24,838 nucleotides of DNA, from the NCBI GenBank assembly GCA_943704525.1, contig CALSCQ010002576.1, forward strand, positions 1 to 24,838, in the 5' to 3' direction. Both the position numbers and the translations under genes were made by a program. Within the stretch, counting starts at the first letter, position 1. Each line of letters begins with the position of its first letter. Source of the stretch: Pigoraptor vietnamica (taxonomy: Eukaryota; Opisthokonta; Filasterea). Below, piece after piece: positions 4,573 through 23,919 of the stretch. Under the pieces are notes generated by a model. It made no database searches. It was not told the DNA's origin and saw only the letters and a list, made by a program, of their open reading frames with translations.

Positions 4573-4648
<76 letters not shown>

Positions 4649-6535
4649 CTGTGTGTGTGTGTGTGCCTGTGTGTGTGTGCGCGGGTGCGGGTGCGGGTGC
4701 GTGTGCGTGCGTGTGCGTGCGTGTGCGTGTGCGTGTGCGCGCGCGCGCGTGTGTGTGTGTGTGTGTGTTGATAGTGCGGGCACGAATAACGGCGTGCCGG
4801 CAGGGTCGCTTGTAGTTTTGTCTCTTGCCAGCGTTTGTGTCAATCGTGCTGCATGAGTGGCCCCTGATGGCGCCAGTGGTCTGCAGGCACACACGGGGTC
4901 GGTGTGGAAGGTGGCGTGGGCACATCCGGAGTTCGGACAGGTCATTGCATCGTGTTCCTTCGATCGCGCCGTGTTTATCTGGGAGGAGCCGCCGTCCTCC
5001 GAGCACAAATCGAAGGTGGGCGTCCATCCAGCGCGACAACAATTGTAGACGGTTTAGCAAACTCTGAAATACGAACATGTGCTGTGTCGTGCAGACGACG
5101 ACAGAGTGGGTGCGCAAGGCGAGCCTCGTCGACAGCAAGGACTCTGTGCGCGACATTGAGTTTGCGCCGAAGCACTTGGGCCTGAAGCTGGTGGGTCCAT
5201 TGGTTCTACTTCGTGGAAATTCTGTTGCGTGCATACGCTCACTCCTCACGCGAATGCGGGACTTGCACGCATGCGCATTTACATTTTCTCCTCCCCATGT
5301 GTGTGCTTATCGTGGTCTTTCGATCCGGTGCGCGTCAGGCGACGTGTTCTGCCGACGGCTTCATCCGGATATACGAGGCGAACGACGTGATGAACCTTGC
5401 GCTGTGGCCGCTGATGGAGGAATTTGAGTCGCGCAAGGGCGGCTGCAACTGCATCTCGTGGAACCCCTCGCGATTCCACCCGCAGATGATCGCCGTGGGC
5501 AGCGACGACCCCGAAGTGAAGGTGCGTGGGCGTGGTCGCCGTTCGTCACGTGGCCGACCGGTGGCAGCGCAGAGACTCGCTTTTCATTATTCTTACTGCG
5601 CCGCCTGTCTCAGTCCCGTTGACTTCTTGTAGCCACGTCCCTAGCGCCCGGTGTCACCATTTTCTTTTCTCATCTCGGCGCTCGTAACGCAAGCATGCCT
5701 TTTCGTCCTCTTATGTTTCTCTGTCGTAACCCAGTCTCATTTTTCCCTTTTCTCTGATGCCTGTTAGATTTGGGAGTACAACGACGCGAGCAGGAAATGG
5801 CTCAAAATCGAGTCCCTTAATGGCCACACGGACGCCGTCCACGACGTTGCCTTCGCCCCGAACGTTGGCCGGTGCGTGTGCGTGTGTGTGTGCGTCCATT
5901 TGCGTGCATGTTCTGTCCAGGTGTGCCTGACGTGTTCAACCTTCGTTTACAGAACATACCATCTTCTCGCCACGTGCTCGAAGGACCGCACCGTGCGCAT
6001 ATGGACCCTCAAGCCGCGACAGGCGCCGGAGTCTGCTCAGGGCCAGGCGCCGACGGGGTCGCTTCTCGACGTGCACCTGGTCGCCGTGTTTGACGACCAT
6101 GAGGCAGAGGTGGGCGTTGAAGCGGTCGTAGAGAATGCTTTCCCCGGTTGCGCACTGCAGGCTCACAGCGATGCGACCCACACTCCGCTTACACCAGTTG
6201 CACACATGCGCACGCACCTAATCGTTTCTCACCTATTGCGAATGGTCGCAGGTGTGGCGGGTGGAGTGGAACATCACGGGCACTATTCTCGCGTCATCGG
6301 GCGATGATGGAATGGTCCGGCTCTGGAAGTGTGAGTCAAACGTTTGTTTGTCTGTGCGTGTGAGTGTGTGCAGGTCGTCTGTGTTTGTGCTCAGGGTGCT
6401 CTGCACTCTGTGTGTGGGTGTGTGTGACTCACTTTCTTGGTGACGCCTGCTCTCGTGTCCGGCGCAGCGACCTATTTGGACACGTGGAAGTGCATCGCTG
6501 CCATTCGCGGGGACGGCGAAGAGCAAGCCGAGTAG
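4215..6535 (+). CDS. SEH1: Nucleoporin SEH1 (WD40 beta-propeller), 9 exons
   Basis: Exons are 4215-4325, 4455-4505, 4887-5015, 5095-5190, 5339-5521, 5768-5871, 5953-6109, 6252-6330 and 6468-6535, giving 325 residues. SEH1 is a SEC13-like open propeller that docks on NUP85 in the Y-complex of the nuclear pore and on the SEA/GATOR2 complex that controls TORC1. Blade signatures run in order: [99 protein letters not shown] and [26 protein letters not shown] and WNITGT favour SEH1 over SEC13. The ATG at 4215 gives the same spacing to HEDIIHD as the animal protein. An upstream ATG at 4112 followed by a splice donor could add a one-codon exon. The animal C-terminal tail is lacking. All exon phases agree. 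Confidence 0.93.
4574..4769. repeat. (TG)37 microsatellite grading into (TG)/(CG) alternating tract, intronic
   Basis: This tract lies inside the 381-bp SEH1 intron 4506-4886, the longest intron of that gene in this model. A pure (TG)n run covers 4574-4647, about 37 units. Interrupted GT runs follow, then a GTGCGG/GTGCGT segment, and finally a GTGTGCGCGCGCGCGCG block around 4733-4750 that returns to GT. Most of it is alternating purine-pyrimidine, which favours Z-DNA. It is expected to be length-polymorphic. The HTHT/CVCV open frames it creates on both strands are artefacts. Confidence 0.95.
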
Positions 6536-7465: not shown

Positions 7466-7714
7466 GGCTGCGGCTGCGAGGCGTCCCGCGTGCGATGCGT
7501 AGAATCGTTTTGAAGTACAAACTCGCACGGGTCAGAGAGCGCTGTCGTCACAAGTACGTCAATACGGTAATGACCGCATAATTTACTTACGACAACGTGA
7601 CGGCACTATTGCACTTTGATGACGCAAGCACCGTGTGCGCCCCAGCTACCTGCACGGTTGAAGGAGAAGGACGGGCCGTCAAGCACACAGAGCACATTTA
7701 TTATTTTCTTTGCT
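7466..7714. promoter_or_regulatory. Bidirectional promoter region bL35m/XPA
   Basis: About 250 bp separate the divergent start codons of bL35m (7465) and XPA (7715). An in-frame ATG at 7616 could extend XPA upstream by 33 residues. I see no obvious core promoter motif. The segment is somewhat richer in A/T near 7680-7715 than its surroundings. Confidence 0.45.
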
Positions 7715-9020
7715 ATGGAGAAGCCATTGCAAAGTTTGCATGCTGATGGGGCGGCTATTGACGCCGGTGGCAGCGGTGATGGCGCCGTGCGGAGTGAATC
7801 GGCGCCGTCTCCTGGCCCTAGTGCGGCGCCGCGTGTCACGGCACGACAATTAGAGCGCATGGAGAGAAACAGGGTCAAGGCAATGCAACTGCGTGAATCG
7901 GTGGGCGTTTGTGCGCTTGCGGCTTTTCAGTTTGTGTGTTGTGATGGCTTTGTAATTGCCGTGCTGAGAACTTGGGTGCGCTTGTTCCGCCCGCAGCGAA
8001 TTGTCAACGCAACGCACTTAGCCGGAGGCAGCGGAGGGACTACAGCGCCTGCCAGTGTGCCTGTACCTCCGCGGCCCTCCATGCCCATGGACACGCGGGC
8101 GGGCTTTATTCCGCCCGAGTATGATGCAGACTATGACGCGCAAGACCCAGCGAACAAGCCGCCCGTGTTCGTCGAGGAGGAGAGTGAGTGTTCCGTAATG
8201 TTCGCTCCACATTTTTGCGTTATCTCAGCGCGCAATTTAACCGCCGTCGAATCACGCGCAGTTCCTGAATTAGGGCGCGAGCACTTTTGTTGCAGAGATT
8301 GCGAGCAGAAATTCTACGACTCGATCCTGCATGCAAAGTACGGGTTGGCGGTGTGCAGCAACTGTTACGACAAGGGGAGGGAGGCGCAGTATTCGTTTGT
8401 GACGAAGAGCGAGGCCAAGTCGGACTACTTGCTCAACGACGACGATCTCGACGGGGGCGAAAACAGCCTGCCGTTCATTCTGAGGAAGAACCCGAGAAAT
8501 CCGAAGTGGAACGAGATGCGCCTCTACTTGCGCTGTCAGGTAAGTAGTCGCAACTGTTGGCGTTGACAAAAGGGAAAGAGCGGCGCGTTTGTCATGTGCT
8601 GATCGAGCTCTGCTTCAGATTGAGGGACGGGCGTTTGAACGGTGGGGCGGCGAAGACGGGCTCGACAAGGAAATTGATCGCCGCGAGGCTGAGAGGGCGG
8701 CGCAGCGCAAGAGAAAACAGGAATCGAACATTAAGCTACTCCGACGAAATGTGCGCACGAGCACTTGGATGAAGGAGAAGAAGACGCACGAGCACGTCTT
8801 CACGAGTGAGGTGTGTGGGTTGTCCGCATCAGTTTCGTCACGGCGGTGGCAGCCATAACTATGATTGGTGCCCTCGTGTTTGCACTCCTCGCTTTCTTAC
8901 CTCTCCTCTTTTCCGACCCGTCTCTCCTCTCTCCTCAACAATTAGTCGTTTGATGCCACTACCGGCAAGGGCGTACGAATGTGCGAATGTGGCTACGAGC
9001 TCGAGTTTGAACGGATCTGA
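7715..9020 (+). CDS. XPA: DNA repair protein XPA, 5 exons
   Basis: Exons are 7715-7900, 7997-8183, 8262-8539, 8619-8810 and 8946-9020, giving 305 residues against about 273 in humans. XPA is the damage-verifying scaffold of nucleotide excision repair; it binds DNA, RPA and TFIIH. The zinc finger has the family spacing C135-x2-C138-x17-C156-x2-C159. It is followed by the DNA-binding core with TKSEAKSDYLLNDDDL, FILRKNP and MRLYLRCQ. Next come a long basic helix (about 220-270) and a terminal segment with MCECGYELEFERI, equivalent to the C-terminal CxxC TFIIH-contact region. The N-terminal RQLERMERNRVKAMQLRES matches the conserved basic helix near the family's start. An upstream in-frame ATG at 7616 is possible but adds no recognisable sequence. 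All splice phases agree. Confidence 0.93.
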
Positions 9021-9225: not shown

Positions 9226-12200
9226 ATGGTCGTCTGCGGCTGCAACGAGCGCCGCTGGTGTGCGTGCACCGTCGTCGACCTCGTCGAGGACCCGACGGGC
9301 CTCCGCCCTTGCGCGTGCTCCTGCGGAAAGTGCAAGTGCAACGATGCCATTCGCCTCGTCAATGTCGGCACGAGCCATGTCGTGTTTGTGCGCATGGAGG
9401 GCCTGCGCGGGGGCATTGTCCCTAAGGAAGTGCGCAAGGCGCTGCTCGCGTTCCCCGAGGTCCGCCACGTGCGCTCGTCCGCCGTGGAGGGACAGCTGCA
9501 CATTTACGTCGGCAGCAAGACGCCCGTGTCCCTCAATCAGCAGTTTGTGGACAGCATCGTGAAGATTGGCTGCAAGGCGACGTTGATCGACCCCGAGGCG
9601 CGCCCTGCACGCGACGTGCACATTGACATCCATTTGGACGACGGGGACAAGCGCGCCGACTGCTGCAAGGGTTCGCCGAAGCCTGTGACGAAGAGTGACG
9701 ATGTCAAGCCCGCCACGGGCACGGTGACGACAACCCTCAGCGTGACAGGCATGACGTGCGCTTCGTGCGTGGCGACGATCGAGCGCCAGCTGGGACAGCA
9801 GAAGGGCATCTTTTCGGTGACGGTCTCCCTGCTCACGGAGCGCTGCATCGTTTCTCACGACCTTGCCCTCATCAGCGCCGATGGAGTGCGCGAGCTCATT
9901 TACGACCTCGGATTTGACGCCGTCGTGGTGGACCTACCCCCGCCTTCGCTCTCTGACGCCGTGTTTGCGATCGACGGCATGACGTGCGCCTCGTGCTCGT
10001 CCGCGATCGAAAGCAAGCTCTCGGCGCACCCGGGCGTCGTTTCGGCGGCCGTGAACCTCGTCGCGGCCAAGTGCAGCGTGCGCTACGACCCCGCCGTTGT
10101 GGGGCCGCGCGATCTCATCGAAGTCGTGGAGGATCTGGGCTACGGCGCGGAGCTGGACGCGGGGGAGGCGTCTGCGGGCGATTCGACGCGCCAGGACGCG
10201 GAAATTGCGGGCATTCGTCGCCTGCTGCTGATCAGCGTCGCGCTGGTGATCCCCATCTTCGCCATCTCGATGGTCTTTCCTTACATTCCGCCCATTGCGG
10301 GTGCATTCCACACGGAGATTACGCAGGGCCTCACGGTCGCCTCGCTGTGCCTGTTTGTTCTCACGACGCCCATTCAGTTTGGCGTCGGCGGCCGCTTCTA
10401 TGTCGGCGCGTACAAGTCGCTGCGCCACGGCACGGCGAACATGGACGTTCTCGTCGCGGGCGGCACTTCGGCGGCTTACATCTACTCGATCGTCACGATC
10501 GCGATCGCCATGACGAACCCGAACTACGAGGCGATGGAGGCGTTTGAGATCAGCGCGCTTCTGATCACGTTCATTGTCTTTGGAAAGTTCCTGGAGCTGC
10601 TCGCGAAGCGCAAGACGTCGGCGGCCATCCGCAAACTGATGGACCTTCAGCCGAGCTCCGCCATCCTCCTCTCGCTCGACCCCAAGACGGGCGCGGTCCT
10701 GTCGGAGCGCGAAATCCTCTCGAAGCTCGTCCAGCGCGGCGACATCCTCAAGGTGCTCCCGGGTGCAAAGGTGCCCACGGACGGCCTTGTCGTTTTTGGC
10801 GAGTCGCACGTGGACGAGAGCATGGTGACGGGCGAGTCTCTTCCCGTTGGCAAGTCGACGGGCTCGGAGGTTACGGGTGGCACTGTCAACCGCGAGGGTG
10901 TGCTTCACGTGCGCGCGGAGCGGGTGGGCGCCGACACAGTCCTATCGCAGATTGCACGCCTCGTCGAGGACGCGCAGGGCTCGAAGGCCCCCATCCAGGC
11001 CGTCGCCGACCGCGTCTCGCGCATCTTTGTGCCGGCAGTCGTGGCGATCGCCGTGGGCGTGTTTGTGATTTGGATTGCTGTGAACTACACGGTTGTCTCG
11101 GACGGCTTCCTCCCGCACGAGACGGGCCGCTTCCTCTTCGCGTTTCTGATATTCATCTCGGTGCTCGTGGTCGCGTGCCCGTGCGCGCTCGGCCTCGCAA
11201 CGCCCACGGCAGTGATGGTGGGGACGGGCGTGGGTGCGCGCAACGGCGTCCTGATCAAGGGCGGCGAACCCCTCCAGACGGCACACAGCGTCACGGCGAT
11301 CATATTCGATAAGACGGGCACGCTCACGCACGGCAAGCCGGTTATGACGGACGTCGTCCTCGCGCCGGCGGGGCCCCTTTCGCGCGCGGAGTTCATGGCG
11401 TATCTGGCGGCTGCCGAGGCGAACAGCGAGCATCCTCTCGGCAAGGCCATCCACGTGCGTGCGACGGAGGAAGCGTCGGAGTCCGGGCTGGCGACTCTTC
11501 CCCCTGCGACTGCGTTCGAAGCGATCCCCGGCCGCGGCCTGCGCTGCGTCGTCGGCGAGAAGGAGGTCCTTGTGGGGAACCGCGCCCTCATGACCGAGAA
11601 TGGCCTTGCGATTGACGCGGGCCTCGACGCCGAGATGCAGCGCATGGAGAAGGACGGCAAGACGGCCATGCTGGCGGCTGTGGGCGGCGCGGTTGCGGGT
11701 GTTGTCTCCGTGTCCGACATGCTCAAGCCCGAGTCGTCCGCTGTCGTGCGGGCCCTCCGCGCGATGGGCATCACGGTGTGGATGGTCACGGGCGACAACT
11801 CGCGCACGGCGCACGCCATCGCGGCGCAGGCGGGCATCGACGACGTGTTCGCGGAGGTCCTTCCCGGCGACAAGGCCGCCAAGGTGCGCGAGCTGCAGGC
11901 GCAGGGACGCGTCGTGGCCATGGTAGGAGACGGCATCAACGACTCGCCGGCGCTGGCTGCAGCGGACTGCGGCATTGCTGTCGGGAGCGGCACGGAAATT
12001 GCGATCGAGGCTGCGGACATTGTTCTCATGCGCAGCGACCTTCGCGACGTCGTCACGGCGATCGACGTATCGCGCAAGACGTTCCGTCGCATTCTGCTGA
12101 ACTTTGCGTGGGCCTTTGGCTACAACCTCCTCGCGATCCCGATTGCCTCGGGCGTGTTCTACTACTGGTGGCGCGCGCTCATGCCCCCGTGGGTCGCCGG

Positions 12201-12366
12201 GATCGCCATGGCTTTCTCGTCGGTGTCCGTTGTTGCGTCGTCGCTTCTGCTCAACTTTTACTCGAAGCCCGTCATTGGGATTGACGGCGAGAACAAGATG
12301 CCTTCCGCGCCGCGTCCGTCGCTTGTGGATGCGCCCGTTGGAACTGTGGACGTGAAGCCCGAGTGA
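9226..12366 (+). CDS. P1B-1-type Cu(+)-transporting ATPase, intronless
   Basis: This single 3141-bp frame encodes 1046 residues. The family (CopA/ATP7/CCC2) exports Cu(I) across membranes using ATP, typically loading secretory cuproenzymes or detoxifying copper. Visible elements are two metal-binding HMA domains with GMTCASC (175-181 and 251-257); actuator TGE (535-537); the membrane metal site CPC (651-653); the phosphorylation site DKTGT with D695; SEHP with H736-P737 in the nucleotide domain; TGDN (855-858); and GDGIND (901-906). GYN in the seventh helix and MAFSSVSVVASS in the eighth are the Cu(I)-specific P1B-1 signature. The N-terminus is unusual: nine cysteines in the first 38 residues, then an HMA-like fold (about 41-121) without the CxxC. 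Unlike the neighbouring housekeeping genes it has no introns. The ATG at 9226 precedes the Cys cluster and there is no competing upstream start. Confidence 0.95.
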   Translation: MVVCGCNERRWCACTVVDLVEDPTGLRPCACSCGKCKCNDAIRLVNVGTSHVVFVRMEGLRGGIVPKEVRKALLAFPEVRHVRSSAVEGQLHIYVGSKTPVSLNQQFVDSIVKIGCKATLIDPEARPARDVHIDIHLDDGDKRADCCKGSPKPVTKSDDVKPATGTVTTTLSVTGMTCASCVATIERQLGQQKGIFSVTVSLLTERCIVSHDLALISADGVRELIYDLGFDAVVVDLPPPSLSDAVFAIDGMTCASCSSAIESKLSAHPGVVSAAVNLVAAKCSVRYDPAVVGPRDLIEVVEDLGYGAELDAGEASAGDSTRQDAEIAGIRRLLLISVALVIPIFAISMVFPYIPPIAGAFHTEITQGLTVASLCLFVLTTPIQFGVGGRFYVGAYKSLRHGTANMDVLVAGGTSAAYIYSIVTIAIAMTNPNYEAMEAFEISALLITFIVFGKFLELLAKRKTSAAIRKLMDLQPSSAILLSLDPKTGAVLSEREILSKLVQRGDILKVLPGAKVPTDGLVVFGESHVDESMVTGESLPVGKSTGSEVTGGTVNREGVLHVRAERVGADTVLSQIARLVEDAQGSKAPIQAVADRVSRIFVPAVVAIAVGVFVIWIAVNYTVVSDGFLPHETGRFLFAFLIFISVLVVACPCALGLATPTAVMVGTGVGARNGVLIKGGEPLQTAHSVTAIIFDKTGTLTHGKPVMTDVVLAPAGPLSRAEFMAYLAAAEANSEHPLGKAIHVRATEEASESGLATLPPATAFEAIPGRGLRCVVGEKEVLVGNRALMTENGLAIDAGLDAEMQRMEKDGKTAMLAAVGGAVAGVVSVSDMLKPESSAVVRALRAMGITVWMVTGDNSRTAHAIAAQAGIDDVFAEVLPGDKAAKVRELQAQGRVVAMVGDGINDSPALAAADCGIAVGSGTEIAIEAADIVLMRSDLRDVVTAIDVSRKTFRRILLNFAWAFGYNLLAIPIASGVFYYWWRALMPPWVAGIAMAFSSVSVVASSLLLNFYSKPVIGIDGENKMPSAPRPSLVDAPVGTVDVKPE

Positions 12367-12772
12367 ATATGCGCGCGTGTTGTGTGAAACAATGTTCTGC
12401 CTGTACTTGTGTGTGTCCGTGGCGTGCGCTTGTGTGTCAGTGAGAATATACGATCCTTTGTGTGGTAGCGGAATTATGACGGCATGTGCCACGCTCTTTA
12501 CCAGCGCTTCTGCTGCTGCGCTCTTGCCCACAGCTACAGGACTAACTGTTCTGGTGCTTTCAGGGACTGCCAACGCGCAACATCCGGGGTGGATGGCTGG
12601 CATGTCACGTGATGCACGCACGTTGTGTCGTCGCTCGCTCAAACTTTTTTTCTTTTCTTTTCAGCGCCGGGGCGCGCATCGTATCGACGTTGCGCGAACG
12701 CGGTGCCGTCCACGTCACCAGCCATTCTCGACTGCGGGGCCGACGCCGGCCGCCCTACCACCCCGCGTGACC
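12367..12772. promoter_or_regulatory. Upstream region of paralogue A
   Basis: This 406-bp stretch follows the ATPase stop. It carries ATCCGGGGTGG at 12582-12592 and the palindrome TCACGTGA at 12605-12612, 161 bp before the proposed ATG. The part from about 12482 is duplicated upstream of paralogue B. A strong T-rich tract ending in CAG (about 12647-12664) looks like a splice acceptor, so a 5' UTR or coding exon may lie upstream. The frame of gene A is open back to 12377, but that extension shows no conservation with copy B beyond the MGDLF start. Confidence 0.5.
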
Positions 12773-15469
12773 ATGGGTGACTTGTTTGCGCAAATTTCCC
12801 ACCGCATTATTGGCTTGGAGACTTACGTCGCACGCACCAACGACGCCCTCTTGGAGCAAATCGGCGCTGTGGATGGGGCGGCGAAAGTGACTGGCCAGGA
12901 GGCGCTGAGGCGAATCGGCCTTGTTGAGAACGCCTTGGGAAAGCTCAAGCCTGACGTCTCCGTGTTGCTCGAACGCGTCGATAATGTGCAGCGCACAATC
13001 GAAGAGGTCGTGAGCGAGGTTGCGAGCAACGTCGTCGCTGAAATAGTGCGGGACCAGAAGCTCGTCACCGCCGGCGCGCTCCAGGAGTGCGTCAATTCGG
13101 TCGTTGGCAGGTCGGCGAGTCTCGAGAGGCAGTTGGCGACGCTCGACGAGCGGATTACCGGCCATGTCGGACAAGTGCGCAACGACGTAACTGCGCTGCA
13201 GCAGCGCAGCGACAACCTCGAAGGCGGCGTTCGCGACTGCAAAACGGCGCTGGAGGACGCCCAGGGACTGGCAATACGGCTCGATGCCTCTAAGAACTTT
13301 TTAGAGCGCGGTGTTCAAACGGTGTTGGAGAAGCACAACAAGCTCGTCGAGTTGCAGGACGCCGGGCAGTGCGGAAGCGTCGTGCGAGAGCACGTCGCGG
13401 CTGAACTCGCACAAGAGAGGACGGCGATTGAAGGGCGCTTGCAAGACCACGTCGCGGCCAAACTCGCTGAGGAGAGGACGGCGATTGAAGAGCGCATGGG
13501 GAGGGCCATGCGAAATCACGTCGCCGCCAAACTTGAGGAGGAAAGGACGGCGATCGAAGAGCGCGCGTGGACGAACGTCGAGAAGCGCGCTGCGCAGTTG
13601 GTGACGGACGCGCTCAGCACCTTCCGCGCCGAGCACGACAAGGTATCGGCCGACGACGTGGCAGCGCTCAAGGCACTCGTGACAAAGCAGCAGTCCGAAA
13701 TCGAGGCTCTCCGTAGCGAACTCCGTCGGCGCCGTGGCGAAGTGGAGCCTCGCGAACGTGAGTATCAGCAAGCCGTGTGGGCGCCGCGCGAGCTCCTTCG
13801 CGAGGACAATGACGCTGGCGTTCCGGCACTGCGTCTGGACGGAGGAGTCAGCCACGCGGCGCAGGGAGCTCTCGTTTTGGAGGGGGCTGAGCCGGGTGGA
13901 GATGGGCACGGGGACGATGCCGCGGCGAGCCACGAAACGCCCGGCGCGGGTCCGGATGCTTCCGACGACGCGAGCGCTCACGAGTTGCCGCAATGGGCCT
14001 CTGAAGTCGTGGCAGAGAATGCGGCGGACGTCCCCGTGGCGCCGGCGAGCAGGGAGCGTCGGAAACGGACTCAGACCGAGCTGGTGAGGCGCTTCTTTGA
14101 AGAAGCCACCAGGAAGGGCATTCCCCGCAAGACGGCGCACGGTGCTTCCGTCCAGGACGTCACGATGACGGCGGCGGGCGGGTCGCCTTCCGCGCCGTCC
14201 GCGTCCGGGTCGTCCGGGACGGCGCAGGAGCACGCCACCTCGTATGGGCGGAAGCGCGCGCTCCCTGCTGACGGCGCGAGGGAAGAGCGGCCTGCAAAGA
14301 GGCGTGCGGCGCGTCGGGAGCTCGCAAATGTGGGCGGGCCGGACTCCAGCATCGGGACGTCGGCATCGGAAATCGAGATGGTGCCCACGCGGCCGTCTGA
14401 CGACACGCCGATATCACAGTGGGACATCAGGTATTTGGCGTACGCGAGTCTCAACGACCTGCGCCGACTGCGAGACCATCTCAAGACACTGCCGAAGCCT
14501 TCGGTGAAGCGGGCGTGCGACGAGGACTTGCAGCAATGGACGGGCGACCCGAGCGAAATCGTCGTGGATGCGAGGAAACGTCTCCCCTTTCCAAAGGGGT
14601 CGTTGATCGTGAACGGCGCCATTTGGAGCGAGCGCTACGCGAGGGCGTACGAGGTGCTCGCATGGCGGTTGAGGGACGTCGAGAAGATATGGGACGGATT
14701 GTGTCACTCCGCGATCCTGTGCCGAGACGTCTTGGACGTCGAGGCACCCCGAGCGATGCCGTGGGGGGACTGGTGCATGGCGTTGGCCCGGTGGATCGCG
14801 TCGCAAGAGGGAGACGCGGTCGTCGCTCCTACTGAGGACGAGGCGGCGACGCTGGGCCTCACTGCGGATGCGTTCGTGTCGCTCTTGGGCTTCTGGAGCA
14901 GGCCGCTCGAACCCCTCGCGATGGCTCGGATCGAGCACGATTTTGTGCACAAAGCGGGCCTTGCGGTAAAAATTCAAACGGTCGCGAGCTACAGCCGCGT
15001 GGCAGACATCGACGTTGCTCTGGGCGCCACCGTTGTGGTCGGTGCGACGTACGCAAACTGGCGGCGGTGGTGTGTGTTGGAGTGCCGAGCGGTGGGTGGG
15101 CGCGGGGGACATTGTACTCGCACCGCGCTCGTCCCGGTCGTAACGGGAAAGGCCGAGGGCCTCCAGCAAGCACTCGAGGAGTGCGGCTACGGCGTCACCA
15201 TGCTGGGCGGGGACACGTTCAAGTCGTCGTCCAAGACGACCAAGATAATGGAGTGCGACGAGGGACTGTTTCACTGCCTCGAGCTGGTGCTCAAGAGAGC
15301 CAAGGGGAGCGGCGTCGCGACGCAGCTGGAGTCTGCCACGCGGGAGGCTTTTCGGAGGATGTACTATGCGTGCGCGTGGCGCGCGTTTCAGTCGCGCGGG
15401 GAACCCGACCAGTCCGTGGTCGCTGGGGCTGCGCCGCGTACGACCGTCAGAAGCGCAGTTACGGCTTGA
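12773..15469 (+). CDS. Unrecognised coiled-coil protein, paralogue A
   Basis: The frame encodes 898 residues from the ATG at 12773, chosen because copy B starts with the same MGDLF in the same ACCATGG context. I do not recognise the family. The N-terminal half (about 20-340) is a long charged coiled coil containing three copies of an HVAAKLxEERTAIEER unit. A disordered acidic/serine-rich linker follows. A basic cluster around 507 (PAKRRAARR) resembles a nuclear localisation signal. The C-terminal 340 residues form a compact, cysteine- and tryptophan-containing domain: YASLNDLRRLRDHL, DLQQWTGDP, DAFVSLLGFW, ANWRRWCVLECRA and GLFHCLELVLKRA. The last part loosely recalls the layout of Ulp1/C48 proteases but lacks an obvious His-Asp pair. 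It is intronless over this span. Relative to copy B, residues 639-673 are a non-homologous-looking patch. Protein-level conservation with B indicates it is a real gene. Confidence 0.75.
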   Translation: MGDLFAQISHRIIGLETYVARTNDALLEQIGAVDGAAKVTGQEALRRIGLVENALGKLKPDVSVLLERVDNVQRTIEEVVSEVASNVVAEIVRDQKLVTAGALQECVNSVVGRSASLERQLATLDERITGHVGQVRNDVTALQQRSDNLEGGVRDCKTALEDAQGLAIRLDASKNFLERGVQTVLEKHNKLVELQDAGQCGSVVREHVAAELAQERTAIEGRLQDHVAAKLAEERTAIEERMGRAMRNHVAAKLEEERTAIEERAWTNVEKRAAQLVTDALSTFRAEHDKVSADDVAALKALVTKQQSEIEALRSELRRRRGEVEPREREYQQAVWAPRELLREDNDAGVPALRLDGGVSHAAQGALVLEGAEPGGDGHGDDAAASHETPGAGPDASDDASAHELPQWASEVVAENAADVPVAPASRERRKRTQTELVRRFFEEATRKGIPRKTAHGASVQDVTMTAAGGSPSAPSASGSSGTAQEHATSYGRKRALPADGAREERPAKRRAARRELANVGGPDSSIGTSASEIEMVPTRPSDDTPISQWDIRYLAYASLNDLRRLRDHLKTLPKPSVKRACDEDLQQWTGDPSEIVVDARKRLPFPKGSLIVNGAIWSERYARAYEVLAWRLRDVEKIWDGLCHSAILCRDVLDVEAPRAMPWGDWCMALARWIASQEGDAVVAPTEDEAATLGLTADAFVSLLGFWSRPLEPLAMARIEHDFVHKAGLAVKIQTVASYSRVADIDVALGATVVVGATYANWRRWCVLECRAVGGRGGHCTRTALVPVVTGKAEGLQQALEECGYGVTMLGGDTFKSSSKTTKIMECDEGLFHCLELVLKRAKGSGVATQLESATREAFRRMYYACAWRAFQSRGEPDQSVVAGAAPRTTVRSAVTA
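13385..13585 (+). repeat. Coiled-coil repeat array in paralogue A (3 units)
   Basis: Three in-frame copies of the unit containing CACGTCGC (13391, 13448, 13517) are spaced 57 and 69 bp apart. They are the counterpart of the longer 69-bp array in paralogue B and encode HVAAKLAEERTAIEER-type segments. Confidence 0.8.
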
Positions 15470-16016
15470 TGGCATAGATCGAATGCGAACGTTCACCATG
15501 TGGGTGCGCCCGTGCCTGTCGTGCGTGCAAGTGCGTGGCCGTGTCGTGCGTGGTCCACGCCCGTCGTCGCTCGCGTGGCGTCGTCGTGCTTGTCCGCCCG
15601 TCGTGCTTGCGGTCCGCCGTGGCTGTGGTCATTTCGCCGTGCGTGGAGAATGAACTATGAGACTTGTTTTCGGCTCCTTTTGGGGCTAGCAGCATAACAT
15701 GCCTTGACTTTGGCTGTGGGGTCTGCGAGAACGGTCAGTGGAAGACTATCACCGAAGTCCGTTCGTGCGCTCATCTCTTAGCGATAATATGCCATTGTTG
15801 GCGTGCCAGCGGAGTGAGAAGCATGTGCCGTCCTTCGCGAGCGCTTCTGCTGCGTTCTGCCTCGACAGACAGACGCGCAACACCCGCCGCGATTGGTGGG
15901 TCACGTGATGCATAAGTGCGCTGCCCACTTCTTTCCTGCATCATATTTTGACGCCGCGTCCCCGCACACAATTTCGGACCGCGCCGACGCCGCCCGTCGA
16001 ACCACCCGATGCGACC
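15470..16016. promoter_or_regulatory. Spacer between paralogues A and B
   Basis: This 547-bp stretch combines the duplicated 3' flank of A (to about 15742), a short unique spacer and the duplicated promoter of B (from about 15821). TCACGTGA lies at 15901-15908, 109 bp upstream of the ATG of B. The ATCCGGGG element of copy A is not preserved here. I see no supported coding sequence. Confidence 0.5.
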
Positions 16017-19000
16017 ATGGGCGATTTGTTTGTGCACCAGATTTCGCAGCGCGTTTTTGCCTTAGAAACGTACGTGTCAGACACCAACGACGCCCTCTTG
16101 GAGCAAATCGGCGCTGTGGATGGGGCGGCGAAAGCGACTGGCCAAGAGGCGCTGAGGCGAATCGGCCTTGCTGAGAACGCCTTGGGAAAGCTCAAGCCGG
16201 ACGTCTCCGAGTTGCTCACGCGCGTCGGTAATGTGGAGCGCACAAACGCAAGGTTCGAAGAGGTCGTGAGCGAGGTTGCGAGCAACGTCGTCGCTGAAAT
16301 AGTGCGGGACCAGAAGCTCGTCACCGCCGGCGCGCTCCAGGAGTGCGTCAATTCGGTCGTTGGCAGGTCGGCGAGTCTCGAGAGGCAGTTGGCGACGCTC
16401 GACGAGCGGATTACCGGCCATGTCGGACAAGTGCGCAACGACGTAACCGCGCTGCAGCAGCGCAGCGACAGCCTCGAAAGCGGCATTCGCGACTGCAAAA
16501 CGGCGCTGGAGGACGCGCAACGGCAGCATGCTGGGCGCATCGTCGCGGTTGAGAACGACGTTGCGAGTCTGCGCGGTGACCTGAACGAGTTATCGCAGGA
16601 GGTTGGCAAGGACCTCGAGTTGGGCATGCAAGAGCACGTCGCTGCCAAACTCGCAGAGGAGAGGGCGGCGATCGAAAAGCGCGCGCGGAAAGATATGCAA
16701 GAGCACGTCGCTGACATGCAAGAGCACGTTGCTGCCAAACTCGCAGAGGAGAGGGCGGCGATCGAAGAGCGCGCGCGGAAGGGCATGCAAGAGCACGTCG
16801 CTACCAAGCTCGCGGAGGAGAGGGCGGCGATCGAAGAGCGCGCGCGGAGGGGCATGCACGAGCACATCGCTGCCAAGCTCGCAGAGGAGAGGGCGGCGAT
16901 TGAAGAGCGCGCGCGGAGGGGCATGCACGAGCACGTCGCTACCAAACTCGCAGAGGAGAGGGTGGCGATCGAAGAGCGCGCGCGGAGGGGCATGCACGAG
17001 CACGTCGCTGCCAAACTCGCAGAGGAAAGGACGGCGAACGAAGAGCGCGCGTGGACGAACGTCGAGAAGCGTGTTGCGCAGTTGGTGGGAAAGTCTGTGA
17101 CGGACGCGCTCAGCACCTTCCGCGCCGAGCACGAGAGGAGAGCAGCGGCCGATCTGACCGCGCTCAAGGCACTCGTGAGGGAGCAGCAGTCAGAACTCGA
17201 GGCTCACCGCTTATCGGCTGACGACGTGGCAGCGCTCAAGGCACTCGTGACAAAGCAGCGGTCCGAAATCGAGGCTCTCCGCGGCGAACTCGGTCGGCGC
17301 CGTGGCGAAGTGGAGCCTCGCGAACGTGAATACCCGCAAACAGTGTGGACGCCCCACGAGAGCCTTCGCGAGGACAATGACGCTGGCGTGCCGTCACAGC
17401 GTCTGGACGGAGGAGTCAACCACGCGGCGCAGGGAGCTCTCGCTTTGGAGGGGGCTGAGCCGGGTGAAGATGGGCACGGGGACGATACCGCGGCGAGCCA
17501 CGGAACGCCCGGTGCGGGTCCGGATGCTTCCGACGTCGCAAGCGCTCACGAGTTGCCGCAAGGGGCCTCCGACTTTGTGGCGGAGAACGCGGCGGACGTC
17601 TCCGTGGCGCTGGCGGGCTGGGAGCGTCGGACACGGTCACAGACAGAGCATTTGAGGCGCTTCTTTGAAGAAGCCGCCGCGAACGGGAAGGAAAGTCCCC
17701 GCAAGACAGCGCACAGTGCTTCCGTCCAAGACGTCACGATGACGGCGGCGGACGGGTCGCCTTCCGCGCCGTCCGCGTCCGGGTCGCTGGGGATGGTGCG
17801 TAGGCGCGTCAACTCGTTTATGCGAAAGCGCGCGCTCCCTGCTGACGGCTCGAGGGAAGAGCGGCCTGCAAAGAGGCGGGAGGAGCGTCGCGAGCTCGCG
17901 GATGTGGGCGGGTCAGAGTCCGGCAACGGGACGTCGGCATCGGAAATCGAGATGGTGCCCGCGCGGCCGTCTGACGACACGCCGATTTCACAGTTGGACA
18001 TCAAGTATTTGGGTTACGCGAGTCTCAACGACCTGCGTCGACTGCGAGACCATCTCAAGACACTGCCGAAGGCGTCGGTGAAGCGGGCGTGCGACGAGGA
18101 CTTGCAGCAATGGACGGGCGACCCGAGCGAAGTCGTCGTGGATGCGAGGAAACGTCTCCCCTTTCCAAAGGGGCCGTTGATCGTGAACGGCGCCATTTGG
18201 AGCGATCGCTACGCGAGGGCGTACGAGTCACTCGCATTGCGGTTGAGGGACGTCGAGAAGGTACGCCAGAGACTGGACGAATTCGCGGCGGAGTACCACA
18301 AGGACTGGGACGTCGGGCAGGCTGCCTGCGGCGAAGGGCAGGGGGACTTAGGCGTGGTGTTGGGCGAATGGATCGCGTCGCAAGAGGGAGACGCGGTCGT
18401 CGCGCCCTCCGAAGACTCGGTGGCAACGCTGGGACTCACTGCGGACGCGTTCGTGTCGCTCTTGGGCTTCTGGACTAGGCCGTTGGAGTCCCTCGCGATG
18501 GCGCGGATCGAGCACGATTTTGTGCGCAAAGCGGGCCTTGCGGTGAAAATTCAAACGGTCGCGAGCTACAACCGCGTTGCCGACGTCGACGTTGCTCTGG
18601 GCGCCACCGTTGTGGTCGGTGCGACGTACGCAAACTGGCGGCGGTGGTGTGTGTTGGAGTGCCGAGCGGTGGGTGGGCGCGGGGGACATTGTACTCGCAC
18701 CGCGCTCGTCCCGGTCGTAACGGGAAAGGCCGAGGGCCTCCAGCAAGCACTCGAGGAGTGCGGTTACGGCGTCACCATGGTGGGCGGGGACAAGTTCAAG
18801 TCGTCGTCCAAGACGACCAAGATGGTGTGCGACGAGGGACTGTTTCACTGCCTCGAGCTAGTGCTCAAGAGAGCCAAGGGGAGCGGCGTCGCGACGCAGC
18901 TGGAGTCTGCCACGCGGAAGGCTTTTCTCAGGATGTACTATGCGTGCGCGTGGCGCGCGTTTCAGTCGCGCGGGGAACCCGACCAGCCCGTGGACGCGCC

Positions 19001-19034
19001 GTATGCGACCGTCAGTAGTCCAATTCTGGATTGA
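16017..19034 (+). CDS. Unrecognised coiled-coil protein, paralogue B
   Basis: The frame encodes 1005 residues from the ATG at 16017 (MGDLF). It is collinear with paralogue A: shared N-terminal coiled coil (DALLEQIGAVDGAAK, ALQECVNSVVGR), a repeat-rich middle, an acidic disordered linker, a basic cluster PAKRREERR, and the same C-terminal domain. It is longer because it carries seven rather than three starts of the 23-residue repeat MxEHVAAKLAEERAAIEERAR, and an extra coiled-coil stretch RRAAADLTALKALVREQQSEL. Residues 749-784 replace the patch at 639-673 of A with unrelated, more charged sequence. Near the end it has KMVCDEGLFHC where A has IMECDEGLFHC, a net one-residue difference. There are no introns and no stop codons, so it appears intact. 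Function is unknown; self-association through the coiled coil is likely. Confidence 0.77.
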   Translation: MGDLFVHQISQRVFALETYVSDTNDALLEQIGAVDGAAKATGQEALRRIGLAENALGKLKPDVSELLTRVGNVERTNARFEEVVSEVASNVVAEIVRDQKLVTAGALQECVNSVVGRSASLERQLATLDERITGHVGQVRNDVTALQQRSDSLESGIRDCKTALEDAQRQHAGRIVAVENDVASLRGDLNELSQEVGKDLELGMQEHVAAKLAEERAAIEKRARKDMQEHVADMQEHVAAKLAEERAAIEERARKGMQEHVATKLAEERAAIEERARRGMHEHIAAKLAEERAAIEERARRGMHEHVATKLAEERVAIEERARRGMHEHVAAKLAEERTANEERAWTNVEKRVAQLVGKSVTDALSTFRAEHERRAAADLTALKALVREQQSELEAHRLSADDVAALKALVTKQRSEIEALRGELGRRRGEVEPREREYPQTVWTPHESLREDNDAGVPSQRLDGGVNHAAQGALALEGAEPGEDGHGDDTAASHGTPGAGPDASDVASAHELPQGASDFVAENAADVSVALAGWERRTRSQTEHLRRFFEEAAANGKESPRKTAHSASVQDVTMTAADGSPSAPSASGSLGMVRRRVNSFMRKRALPADGSREERPAKRREERRELADVGGSESGNGTSASEIEMVPARPSDDTPISQLDIKYLGYASLNDLRRLRDHLKTLPKASVKRACDEDLQQWTGDPSEVVVDARKRLPFPKGPLIVNGAIWSDRYARAYESLALRLRDVEKVRQRLDEFAAEYHKDWDVGQAACGEGQGDLGVVLGEWIASQEGDAVVAPSEDSVATLGLTADAFVSLLGFWTRPLESLAMARIEHDFVRKAGLAVKIQTVASYNRVADVDVALGATVVVGATYANWRRWCVLECRAVGGRGGHCTRTALVPVVTGKAEGLQQALEECGYGVTMVGGDKFKSSSKTTKMVCDEGLFHCLELVLKRAKGSGVATQLESATRKAFLRMYYACAWRAFQSRGEPDQPVDAPYATVSSPILD
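16626..17060 (+). repeat. 69-bp in-frame tandem repeat array in paralogue B
   Basis: Unit starts (ATGCAAGAGCAC or ATGCACGAGCAC) lie at 16626, 16695, 16716, 16785, 16854, 16923 and 16992. All steps are 69 bp except one 21-bp partial unit (16695-16715). Each full unit encodes 23 residues. A long antisense open frame through this array is a by-product of its codon structure. Confidence 0.92.
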
Positions 19035-19607
19035 CGGCGTAGAATTGAACGGACGTCCCCTGTTGGTGCGCCCGCTCCCATCGTCGTGCGTGTCTTGGTC
19101 ACGTGCTTGCGTTGTCGTCCTCGTGCTTGCGGTCGTCTGCCGTGCCTGCAGAATGAACTATATAACTTATTTCCAGCTGCCTTTTGTGCGAGCTAGCAGA
19201 ACATGCGTTCGCGTTGGATGTGGGTCTGCGAGGACGATCGGTCGAAAGACAGGCGGAAATTTGCAGCACATCCTCTCTCATGTTTTGGGCGATCCGCGAT
19301 CCCTTCGCACAATCGCTCGACTTGCGTCAGGTTCAAGCGTACGGTCGCCGCAGCGTTCAGCAAATGGCGCGTGATGCTGTGCCATGGACGCGTGCGCCAT
19401 AAAAATGCCTCTCGCAAAGCGAAGAAGACTGACCTTTTGCATCCGCCGATCGCAGCCGCCATGACATTGAATCTCCACTAGGCAAGTCAAGGTCTCACAG
19501 TCTGTCCCAACGACAAAACCAATTGCACAGATATTGGAACAAACGCGTCTTCATGTGCTCCAGTCACAATGCGGAAGCAAATTAGAGCGACGCACGTAAC
19601 GCAGCGC
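19035..19607. other. Convergent intergenic region between paralogue B and MIC60
   Basis: The first 210 bp are the duplicated 3' flank of unit B, including GAATGAACTATATAAC at about 19151. The remainder up to the MIC60 stop is unique sequence of lower G+C with no supported gene. It should contain both polyadenylation sites, but I cannot point to a definite signal. Confidence 0.5.
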
Positions 19608-22214
19608 TCACGACATAGAGGTGGCCTTCAGGGTCACCTCGGCGTCCACCATGCGCACAGCCTGCACGAGCTCCAGCCGCGTGCGCGCGTCCTTGAGCCA
19701 GTCGTACGCCAGCTTGCGCGGCCACCCGCGCAGCTGATTCACGTGCCGCGTCGCAGTCTCCAGGTCGCCGTGCGACAGGGCATCCTCCGCACGGGCGAGG
19801 ATCGCGTCGACGTCGTCGCCTTCCACGGGGCCCTTCGGCGTGAACAAGAGCGCCGAGAACACAGCAGACAGCGCGTGCGACACCATACCGCCGTCCTCCG
19901 GCATGAGCGAGGCGCGGTGGGCGTGCTTCTTGACAGCCGCAAACCGCCTTCGGAGGTCGTCGTCGGTGGGAATGGGACGCACGAGCGCTTCCGCGGGGAA
20001 GTTCGACAGCGCCACGACGACAGCCTCATCGTCTTGACCCGCCACCGAGAGCGCGCGAACGGCGGCCGAGATGCGCTCGGGGTCGCCCGCGTTCGCGGCG
20101 TGTGACAAGGCGCGCGCGGCGAGCCACAGCTGGTGCGCCCTTCCCCGAATTGCTCCCTCGCTCACCTCCTCCGAGAGCACGAGCTCGAGCGCACGCAGGC
20201 GGCCAAAAAGCGTCTCCAGCTGCTGCATGCGCACCGCCCTCTCCTGCGCAATGCGATCCTGGAGCTCAGAGGCCATCCGCGACGTGAGGTCCTTCTCCTG
20301 AGCGGCAAGACGCTCGCGCATGTGCGAATCTTGCAGGGCCGCCTGCCGCCGCAGCACCTTGTGGAGCTCGTTCGCGTGCTGCGTCTCCGCCGCCGCGCGG
20401 TCCCGGAGCACAGCCGCAGCAAACTCCTCGCGCACCTTGTCGAGTTCGGCCTCGAACGTCGCGCGGACACTCGAGCGCTGCTGGTCAAGCATGGCCTTGA
20501 AGCGCTTTCCGTCCTCCTCCTGCTGTTCCAACACGGCGCGCGCGAGGCGCTCCTCGTCGCGACGCCGCCACTGCTCCAGCGCATACTCGAGCACCGCGAT
20601 GCGTTCCTTGGCGTCCTCGAGCGTCTCCGGGAACTCCGCCCGCAGCGCGTCGCCGAGCACGGCATGGGCGTCGTTCGCGACGACGGCGTGCGCGATCCGC
20701 TGCGAGAGGCTGGCATCGACAGGCAGGGAGAGATTGTCGATGGGCTTCATGGCCTCCTCCGCCACGCGCTCCGTTCCTTCCACGAGAACGCGCACGGCTT
20801 CTGCGGGCGCGTCGGTGCCCGGCGTCGCGTCCTCCGCGCGGAAGTATATGTCGTCGTCGCTGTCGCCGGCATCCTCGCTGCGCTGGGCGCCCTTCTCCTT
20901 CTCAATCTCGGCAACGACTTCAGGTCCCTCCATGGCCGTGCCAATTTCGACGGCGGACTCCTGCCGTGCGAGAGGGAACAACGTGTCAGTGCACACGCAC
21001 CAACGTACCCTCAGGGAATTCTCTGATTTCCTGATTACATAAGCCGAAGCGTACAGCACAATACTTGCACCCTCACCGATGCACACATGCGTTGACACAG
21101 GCCTTTCAAAATGCACGCAAAGCAAACACAAAAACAAACACACAACAGACCTGGACGGCGACATCCGGGGCGCCCTCCGCCGACTCGGCATGCCAGCGCG
21201 GACCCGTATCGTTGCGCAGCGCATCGATGTCCTCCGGCACGACAGCGGCTGTCTGCGCAGACTGGACGTCCTCGGCGTCGACGTCAGACGGCTGTGTGTG
21301 TGCCTGGGCAAAGGACTCTTCCTCGGCGGCGGGCGAGGGCGGTGGCGGTGGCGGCGTCTCCTTCACCGGCGTGGCCTTCGATGCCGACAGAGGGCGCGCG
21401 CCACCGGCCGGCGCAATCGACTCGAGGCGAGGGGGTGCTTCGTAAGCGATGGCCGTCGCCTTCTTGTCCTTCCTCGGCACGTGCACCGAGTGCGCGATGG
21501 ACTTGCCGATGAGCGGGACGTTCTTGGCGAACCACTCGTTAAAGTCGTCGTTGTGCAGCTTGTAGTACAAATAGCCTCCCGTTGCAAGCAGGGTCAGACC
21601 GCCCGCAATCAGCGCCGTCGACAGCGCACCGCCGCCGGACGATGAAGAGCCGGTGTTCGCCTGCTCGTGCCGGTACACGACACTGGCATCCCACAACAGA
21701 GTACAAAATCAGATTCACGTGAACGATGAAGGGTACATTCCAAAAAGCGACCACAGCAAAGCAAGCACCATTGCTCAACGAAGCATCCACACACCGCATC
21801 GGGCGCTCTTCGCCGGTCTTGGCCGCATCTGCGCCCTCGGGCTTCTTTGGTGTGGGTCCTGTGCTCGGCTGCTGCGGCTTTGCCTCTGACGCAGGCGGCG
21901 CTTCCGGTTGCCGCTTGATCTCGGTCGCACCCTGCACCTTCCCCTTTGGCACATCCCCAGCGGGGGACTCCTTCGGCTTCAGCGGCCCTGTCGGCGGCGC
22001 GGTGGGCTTGCTGCCCTTGACATCCACATAACCCCTCTGCGAAATCCGATGCAAATTGAGCGGATGCACACTCGAGAAATCCAAGTTGTGACATTGAGAG
22101 TCAGGGGCTCAGTCCTAGATTCCGCCGTTGACTCACCGTCGAACGCGGCGCGGCCAATCGCTGCCCGCCACAGTGGGCGAGCAAGGCGCGCATGCGGGGT
22201 GCCGCGCGCAGCAT
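19608..22214 (-). CDS. MIC60: MICOS subunit MIC60/mitofilin, 4 exons
   Basis: Exons in coding order are 22137-22214, 21795-22036, 21151-21682 and 19608-20960, giving 734 residues against about 758 in humans. MIC60 is the core inner-membrane protein of the MICOS complex that shapes crista junctions. Exon 1 encodes an arginine-rich presequence (MLRAAPRMRALLAHCGGQR). A proline-rich linker and one membrane helix (about 126-147, ALIAGGLTLLATGGYLYY) come next, followed by KLHNDDFNEWFAKNVP. A large coiled coil spans about 390-560. The C-terminal mitofilin signature domain contains DDDLRRRFAAVKKHAHRAS, HGDLETATRHVNQLRGW and DWLKDARTRLE. All splice phases agree, with donors GTGAGTC, GTGTGTG and GTCTGTT. 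The gene is head-to-head with the RING gene at 22727. Confidence 0.92.
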
Positions 22215-22726: not shown

Positions 22727-23919
22727 ATGGCCTCCCGGTCGTTCTTCTCGCGGCTGCGGTTCCGGCTGCCCTCTCGGCCGAGTGAGTCTCCATTGCGATA
22801 CTAACCCTAATGATCGTATTCGAGAAGCGTAATGAAATGTGGCTGTTCTGTGCTTGTCCAATTCGACCTCTGACGGGCCAATAATGCAGTTCCGCCGGGT
22901 CTGGGACATGGACCTCCGCCGCCGCCACAGCTGTGGCAACCGGTGCACAGAGCACCGACCCTCTCGAGCTTCCAATACCGTCCGTTCAACGCGCCGCAGC
23001 CGTTCCAAGTCGTGACCGCTGCCGGGCGCCGCACCATGGCAACGCTCATCGAGTCGCCCTTGACGGCGTCAGTGACTCGCGTGGCGCCGTTCCTCCAAAA
23101 TTACAGCCGGCTCGTTGCGCGCGCGTTTGGGAGTCGCATGGTTGCTGGGACGGCCGCCGTTGGACTTGCCGTGTGTCTGAGTGGGTGGCCGCGGGCAGTG
23201 GCCGTTGTCTGTGCTTGGCGTGAGTAGTTTGTTTGTCAGAGAACACTCAACTCCCGTTTAAATGCGTGCAGCCAACCTGCGTTATTCGGGCATCTACGCG
23301 CGCGAGTGTGAGGAGCCTACGGTCATGCAGAGGACCCACGAGAATGACGAGCGCGTGCTGTCGGATCCCACGCTTATCGTGGGCCGCACGCCCATTGCGC
23401 GCGTTCTCCTGGCACCTCGCAGCGCCGCCGACGAACTCGCGGCCGTGCGCGTCGAGCGTCGCATCCTTTGCGACCGCGTGAACGACCTCCGTCTCTCCGA
23501 GGAGCGGAGCCGTGCGAACGCAGCCGCCGCCAACGCATCGGTGCAGGAATTGCAAGCCGAGGTGCGCCATACTTTCTGTTTTCTGCGGCAACGTTCGTGA
23601 GTTCACAATAGTTTCGACGTCCACAACTCGCATGGATGATATTGACAACGCGCTGCTGCACTCTCCTCGTCAGGTCGAGGCGCTTCGTGCGCAGTTGTGC
23701 GCCGAGCGCAAGCGATTCCGCGACAAGGAAAAGTTGTTAGAGGACGCACTGCACGAGGCGAGCGTGACGGCTACGTGCGTCGTGTGCCTCGACACCCCTC
23801 GCAACGTCGTGTTTGGCTGCGGGCATCACGTGGCCTGTCAGGGATGTGCCGAGCGGCTGTCGCGTTGCCCGATGTGCCGCGCCGACGTGGACGAGCTCAT
23901 TGTTCACTTTGTTTCGTGA
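22727..23919 (+). CDS. C-terminal RING-finger protein, predicted mitochondrial/membrane E3 ligase, 4 exons
   Basis: Exons are 22727-22781, 22890-23219, 23272-23561 and 23674-23919, giving 306 residues. The C-terminal RING is IAP/MULAN-like, with ligands C260, C263, C274, H276, C280, C283, C290 and C293 (CVVCLD, CGHHVAC, CPMC), so it is probably a ubiquitin ligase. It is preceded by a coiled coil (about 185-255). The N-terminus MASRSFFSRLRFRLPSRP is basic, serine-rich and acid-free, like a mitochondrial presequence. A proline-rich stretch follows, then a hydrophobic segment at about 102-128 (GTAAVGLAVCLSGW) that may span a membrane. This layout (targeting peptide, membrane segment, coiled coil, terminal RING) recalls mitochondrial RING ligases, but I cannot name an orthologue. 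It shares a divergent promoter region with MIC60. Splice phases all agree. Confidence 0.82.

Follow-up and report, generated by a model that had tools for sequence, protein, structure and literature searches.

The window analysed here, 24,838 nucleotides in length, is the entire contig C1073 of an assembly of 32,526,649 bases in 1,395 contigs. Two genes, A and B, lie in head-to-tail, direct units of 3.34 kb (A) and 3.49 kb (B), between a heavy-metal P-type ATPase gene and a mitofilin gene (Table 1). The neighbours of the pair are ordinary eukaryotic genes. Because the ATPase neighbour is likewise one uninterrupted frame, the intronless state of A and B is not special at this locus. A second heavy-metal ATPase-like gene is found on another contig (C1047:21672-23231, minus strand), with 67-77% DNA identity to the ATPase gene of the window in three pieces. 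A long (TG)n tract, interrupted by TGCC and CG, also lies in the window at about 4574-4770.

Table 1. Positions of the genes and sequence features in the window.
Feature	Position	Strand	Remarks
WD40 exons	5213-5629 and 5876-6304		
Mitochondrial-type L35	6923-7357	-	
XPA	7616-8563		
Heavy-metal P-type ATPase	9226-12366		Pfam; single reading frame, 1046 codons; adjoins pair on 5′ side
Duplicated unit A	12415-15756	+	5′ flank, gene A and 3′ flank; from local flank alignments to unit B, limits approximate
TCACGTGATGCA, E-box-like	12605-12616	+	168 nt before gene A ATG
Gene A	12773-15469	+	898 aa; intact, intronless; start context ACCATGG
N-terminal amphipathic segment, gene A	12773-13276	+	residues 1-168; probably coiled-coil, judged from helical periodicity
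Short repeat array, gene A	13383-13495	+	2.0 copies of a 57-nt (19 aa) unit
Bipartite NLS-like cluster RKRALPADGAREERPAKRR, gene A	14249-14305	+	residues 493-511
Conserved C-terminal region, gene A	14387-15466	+	83% identical to B
Divergent block C2, gene A	14687-14800	+	
Duplicated unit B	15757-19250	+	from local flank alignments, limits approximate
TCACGTGATGCA, E-box-like	15901-15912	+	116 nt before gene B ATG
Gene B	16017-19034	+	1005 aa; intact, intronless; start context ACCATGG
N-terminal amphipathic segment, gene B	16017-16616	+	residues 1-200; probably coiled-coil, judged from helical periodicity
Repeat array, gene B	16625-17055	+	69-nt (23 aa) units, 4.9 copies at 16715-17055; 90-nt units, 2.0 copies at 16625-16802
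Bipartite NLS-like cluster RKRALPADGSREERPAKRR, gene B	17823-17879	+	residues 603-621
Conserved C-terminal region, gene B	17961-19031	+	
Divergent block C2, gene B	18261-18374	+	
Mitofilin	19608-21311	-	Pfam; adjoins pair on 3′ side
RING finger	23512-23916		

The encoded proteins are 80% identical and differ in length by 107 residues. Both frames are uninterrupted and far longer than the ATG-initiated frames in 300 dinucleotide shuffles of positions 12367-19620 (longest 505 aa, median 244), in agreement with the first-pass annotation, which had reported them as intact. With codon log-odds trained on the neighbouring ATPase gene, frame 0 scored -0.02 in A and -0.03 in B, against -0.20 to -1.01 for the five other frames. 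The open stretch upstream of each ATG, in the same frame, scored poorly (-0.44 in A and -0.67 in B). Based on the frame lengths beyond those of the shuffles and the codon scores favouring frame 0, with poor scores upstream, A and B are almost certainly protein-coding genes. Intact frames, host-like codon usage and, in the surely aligned parts, frame-keeping indels were found for both.

The duplication extends beyond the genes. The 5′ flanks align with 73 of 97 bases identical and the 3′ flanks with 130 of 162, each with a score above those of all 200 base shuffles. The earlier description of two direct copies including their 5′ and 3′ flanks is borne out; the block itself, placed at 12482-19245, is slightly wider (about 12415-19250). 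The E-box-like word TCACGTGATGCA occurs before both genes. These are the 2 exact sites in the window, and 3 of 100 shuffles held as many at one mismatch or fewer. In the whole genome, the word has 32 sites (15 forward and 17 reverse), compared with 1 for the reversed control word and a uniform expectation of about 4. An ORF of at least 80 aa starts between -20 and +700 nt from the word at 24 of the 32 sites in the forward direction and at 26 of the 32 in the reverse, and hence the word has no orientation preference. A second CACGTG is present near several of the genomic sites. The word is possibly a frequent E-box-like element.

The two proteins share one order of parts, in which a helical N-terminal half with a repeat array is followed by a linker rich in proline, glycine and acidic residues, a basic cluster and a C-terminal region of 357-360 residues. 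The parts named in the first-pass annotation are thus present, from the array of repeats and the acidic linker to the NLS-like cluster and the conserved C-terminus. In B, the non-repetitive residues 1-200 show hydrophobic periodicity with maxima at 3.6 and 3.5 residues. The array of 23-residue units in B peaks at 3.82, with almost no 3.5-residue signal, and is composed of 43% charged residues and 23% alanine. Of the N-terminal repeat coiled coil described before, the amphipathic signal therefore stands mainly in the non-repetitive N-terminus, and a coiled coil in the repeat array itself is doubtful because of the 3.82 period. The arrays differ in content: A carries two 19-residue units, and B carries 4.9 units of 23 residues and two of 30. 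The basic cluster, RKRALPADG(S/A)REERPAKRR, is conserved in both copies, and by the usual NLS rule we take it to be bipartite NLS-like. An AlphaFold model of the C-terminus, computed from a two-row alignment, was unusable (mean pLDDT of 34.4 and pTM of 0.24), and the structural check proposed for this region gave no usable fold.

We compared the pair with sequence libraries and with its own genome. In Pfam, the full proteins returned 9 and 4 families up to an E value of 1, none above the curated cut-off. The best of these (Sey1_3HB, LPP, TolA_bind_tri, Lectin_N and Fib_alpha, E = 0.014 to 0.12) all lie in the helical N-terminal half, below the curated cut-off, and are typical coiled-coil noise. 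The C-terminal pieces gave no Pfam match above the cut-off up to E = 10 (best 0.24). PHROGs, for which there is no curated cut-off, returned two matches for A (E = 0.015 and 0.017) and none for B, and NCBIfam returned none for either protein. Among the PDB sequences, the C-terminus gave best E values of 0.3 and 1.2, and the N-terminus had no match at 0.01 or below. The weak matches to HEPN (E = 1.2), beta-mannosidase (E = 0.3), and defensin and thionin (E = 0.24 to 1.4) were dismissed as noise. A tblastn search of phages with the C-terminus found no relative. Five scans of IMG/VR with different segments and two of GTDB found 0 relatives; these sought a few exact peptides and would recover close relatives only. 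Within the libraries searched, none of them a eukaryotic sequence collection, the pair is an orphan, and to that extent the earlier statement that no family is recognised agrees with our result.

In its own genome, only A and B were recovered with 601 bases of B at the DNA level, with the C-terminus of B (E ≤ 10) and with the whole B protein (E ≤ 1). The N-terminus of B (E ≤ 10) found A, B and one match on another contig (C1306; E = 0.52, 20% identity), which we take as probable coiled-coil noise. No third, degenerate copy was matched in the rest of the window by tblastn or blastn with either copy. The copy count thus speaks against the expanding lineage-specific family proposed in the first-pass annotation. 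These counts are lower bounds, given that a 6.5 kb DNA query returned the ATPase relative yet missed the window itself, and that the assembly is broken at near-identical repeats. Two contigs begin with the same actin C-terminus, matched with equal scores (C1015:3-227 and C868:3-227), which indicates that near-identical repeats break the assembly. An actin C-terminus of 75 residues appears similar to those known from amoebae or animals.

The selective constraint on the pair was estimated from A and B over 894 codons by the Nei-Gojobori method, using our own script with bootstrap ranges. The overall dN/dS is 0.67 (0.54-0.82). It is 0.42 in the N-terminus (first 168 columns), 0.59 in the repeats, 0.78 in the linker (0.50-1.28, a range that would fit neutrality of the linker) and 0.70 in the C-terminus (0.47-0.99), with 0.44 in the last 220 columns of the latter. 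Conserved genes usually show dN/dS values well below 0.67. The values suggest that purifying constraint is present, though modest. The argument that protein identity persists where codons differ, and thus implies selection, is weakly upheld by the overall value; it is weakened by two long conserved stretches that are identical in DNA as well and by a dN/dS above 1 in block C2.

Block C2, a stretch of 38 codons in the C-terminal region, shows a dN/dS of 1.24 (dN = 0.65, dS = 0.52). The DNA alignment of A and B contains 29 gaps in total. All 5 gaps in well-aligned stretches and all 4 across positions 13434-13644 of A are divisible by three. The corresponding counts are 3 of 13 in the ambiguous, poorly aligned repeat zone at 13264-13374 and 3 of 7 in C2, with the net frame kept in both. 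In A, the codon score of C2 is the lowest or near-lowest in the gene (-0.05; the median over windows of 25 codons is 0.26), and that of C2 in B is 0.30. An unrelated replacement of the block was ruled out because the two versions align better than most shuffles (score of -4; shuffle mean of -23.2, sd of 7.6 and maximum of 7). A clear frameshift was also ruled out, since frame 0 scores best in both copies.

Identity between the copies is unevenly distributed. Differences affect 176 of the 2184 sites that lie outside the repeats and C2, where there are nevertheless identical DNA runs of 193 and 178 nt; none of 2000 shuffles reached 193. Synonymous changes are clustered (dispersion of 2.06, as high in 16 of 5000 shuffles), and the two longest synonymous-identical runs taken together were matched by 33 of 5000 shuffles. 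The longest such run taken singly is unexceptional (332 of 5000), so the case for conversion rests on the remaining tests. Both elements of a gene-conversion signature were found, since synonymous identity is clustered and the copies share identical runs of DNA. At fourfold sites, 33 of 366 differ outside the repeats and C2 (91% identical) and 9 of 36 differ within the repeats. The aligned flanks are 75-80% identical (20-25% diverged). Because the flanks are less similar than the fourfold sites and long identical runs are present, the pair seems to be of greater age than the identity of its coding sequences would indicate. The simplest reading, supported by moderate statistics, is an older duplication whose coding part later underwent gene conversion in patches; the pattern could also owe something to codon bias or unequal mutation. 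A recent duplication, as first suggested, is doubtful, since divergence is greater in the flanks and the repeats than in most of the coding sequence.

The chief rival to a functional pair is relaxed constraint, with A drifting toward a pseudogene while its frame is still open. The dN/dS values of 0.67 overall and 1.24 in C2 would agree with such a drift, as would the contrast in C2 codon scores between A (-0.05, below the median of 0.26) and B (0.30). We consider it unlikely in view of the 898 codons of A that carry neither a stop nor a net frameshift, and of the long identical stretches common to A and B. A foreign origin, from a giant virus or elsewhere, is very unlikely. The general pattern of large orphan genes that lack introns in a eukaryote of high GC content could suggest it; against this, no relative appeared in the phage tblastn search or, within the few exact peptides sought, in IMG/VR and GTDB. 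Furthermore, the codon usage fits the host ATPase, and the neighbours are ordinary host genes, among which the ATPase is also one uninterrupted frame.

The intronless, tandem arrangement and the lack of a host family might also be expected of the ORF of a mobile element. The genome yielded two copies only and none dispersed, the stretches 12301-12490 and 19141-19340 share no 12-base terminal repeat in inverted orientation (one mismatch or fewer), and no Pfam transposase, integrase or polymerase was matched, which leaves this explanation extremely unlikely. The match to a known transposon that the first-pass annotation named as a possible refutation was accordingly not seen. Its other possible refutation, two alleles placed in tandem by the assembly, hardly deserves credence. 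The assembly consists of short contigs, and the actin fragments at contig starts illustrate breakage at repeats; nevertheless, 80% protein identity, a 107-residue difference and flanks diverged by 20-25% are far past the usual allelic divergence, and the ATPase and mitofilin genes flanking the pair are single.

Our preferred but tentative reading, with a probability of about 0.35, is that A and B are functional, lineage-restricted paralogues. They would encode a helical scaffold that is nuclear and oligomeric and carries a C-terminal module for binding, sharing most of their sequence through conversion and differing in rod length and C2. What is observed, and what this explanation builds on, is that the unit is duplicated, that both frames are intact and coding in character, that the repeats differ in length and that one block diverges. 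A and B would have arisen when a 3.4 kb unit was duplicated in tandem in one unequal event, and later gene conversion, to which the moderate statistics point, would have partly homogenised them. As read from sequence features, both proteins may enter the nucleus by means of the bipartite basic cluster. The N-terminal helical segment, as a putative coiled coil, would mediate oligomerisation into pairs or higher oligomers (A-A, B-B or A-B), and the helical repeat rod may serve as a spacer whose length differs between A and B. In this scaffold or adaptor role, the C-terminal module, predicted to be mainly helical, would be presented to bind a partner, and the divergent C2 block may direct A and B to different partners. 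Several points stand against this explanation: no homologue appeared in the libraries searched, the dN/dS is nearer 1 than in most conserved genes, with a linker range that would fit neutrality, the longest synonymous-identical run is unexceptional, the repeat zone and C2 contain non-triplet gaps, and the C-terminal pLDDT is 34. A bolder version is rather improbable, in which A and B would be the founders of an undescribed nuclear family with a new C-terminal fold, and conversion would keep the copies alike except for one fast-changing surface block that sets partner specificity.

The pair is real, intact and unrecognised within the searched libraries. It is not a demonstrated system, and a system extending beyond the two genes is without support. 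As it stands, the pair has no bearing on any long-standing open question. Large orphan genes that are intact but lack any recognised domain indicate regions of protein space still unexplored in eukaryotes that have received little study. A pair shaped by gene conversion, save for a single divergent block, also makes a tidy natural experiment, pointing to the part of the protein that is free to change.

A and B resemble two general kinds of system. With tandem paralogues homogenised by conversion, they have in common the head-to-tail units, the patchy identity and the identical runs inside diverged sequence. They differ in that only two copies are present here, for which conversion tracts cannot be polarised without an outgroup. 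With long coiled-coil scaffolds that bear a C-terminal globular module, A and B share an N-terminal helical rod, a disordered acidic linker, an NLS-like cluster and a conserved C-terminus. In contrast to such scaffolds, they have no significant match to a solved coiled-coil protein, and the period of the array is 3.82 instead of 3.5.
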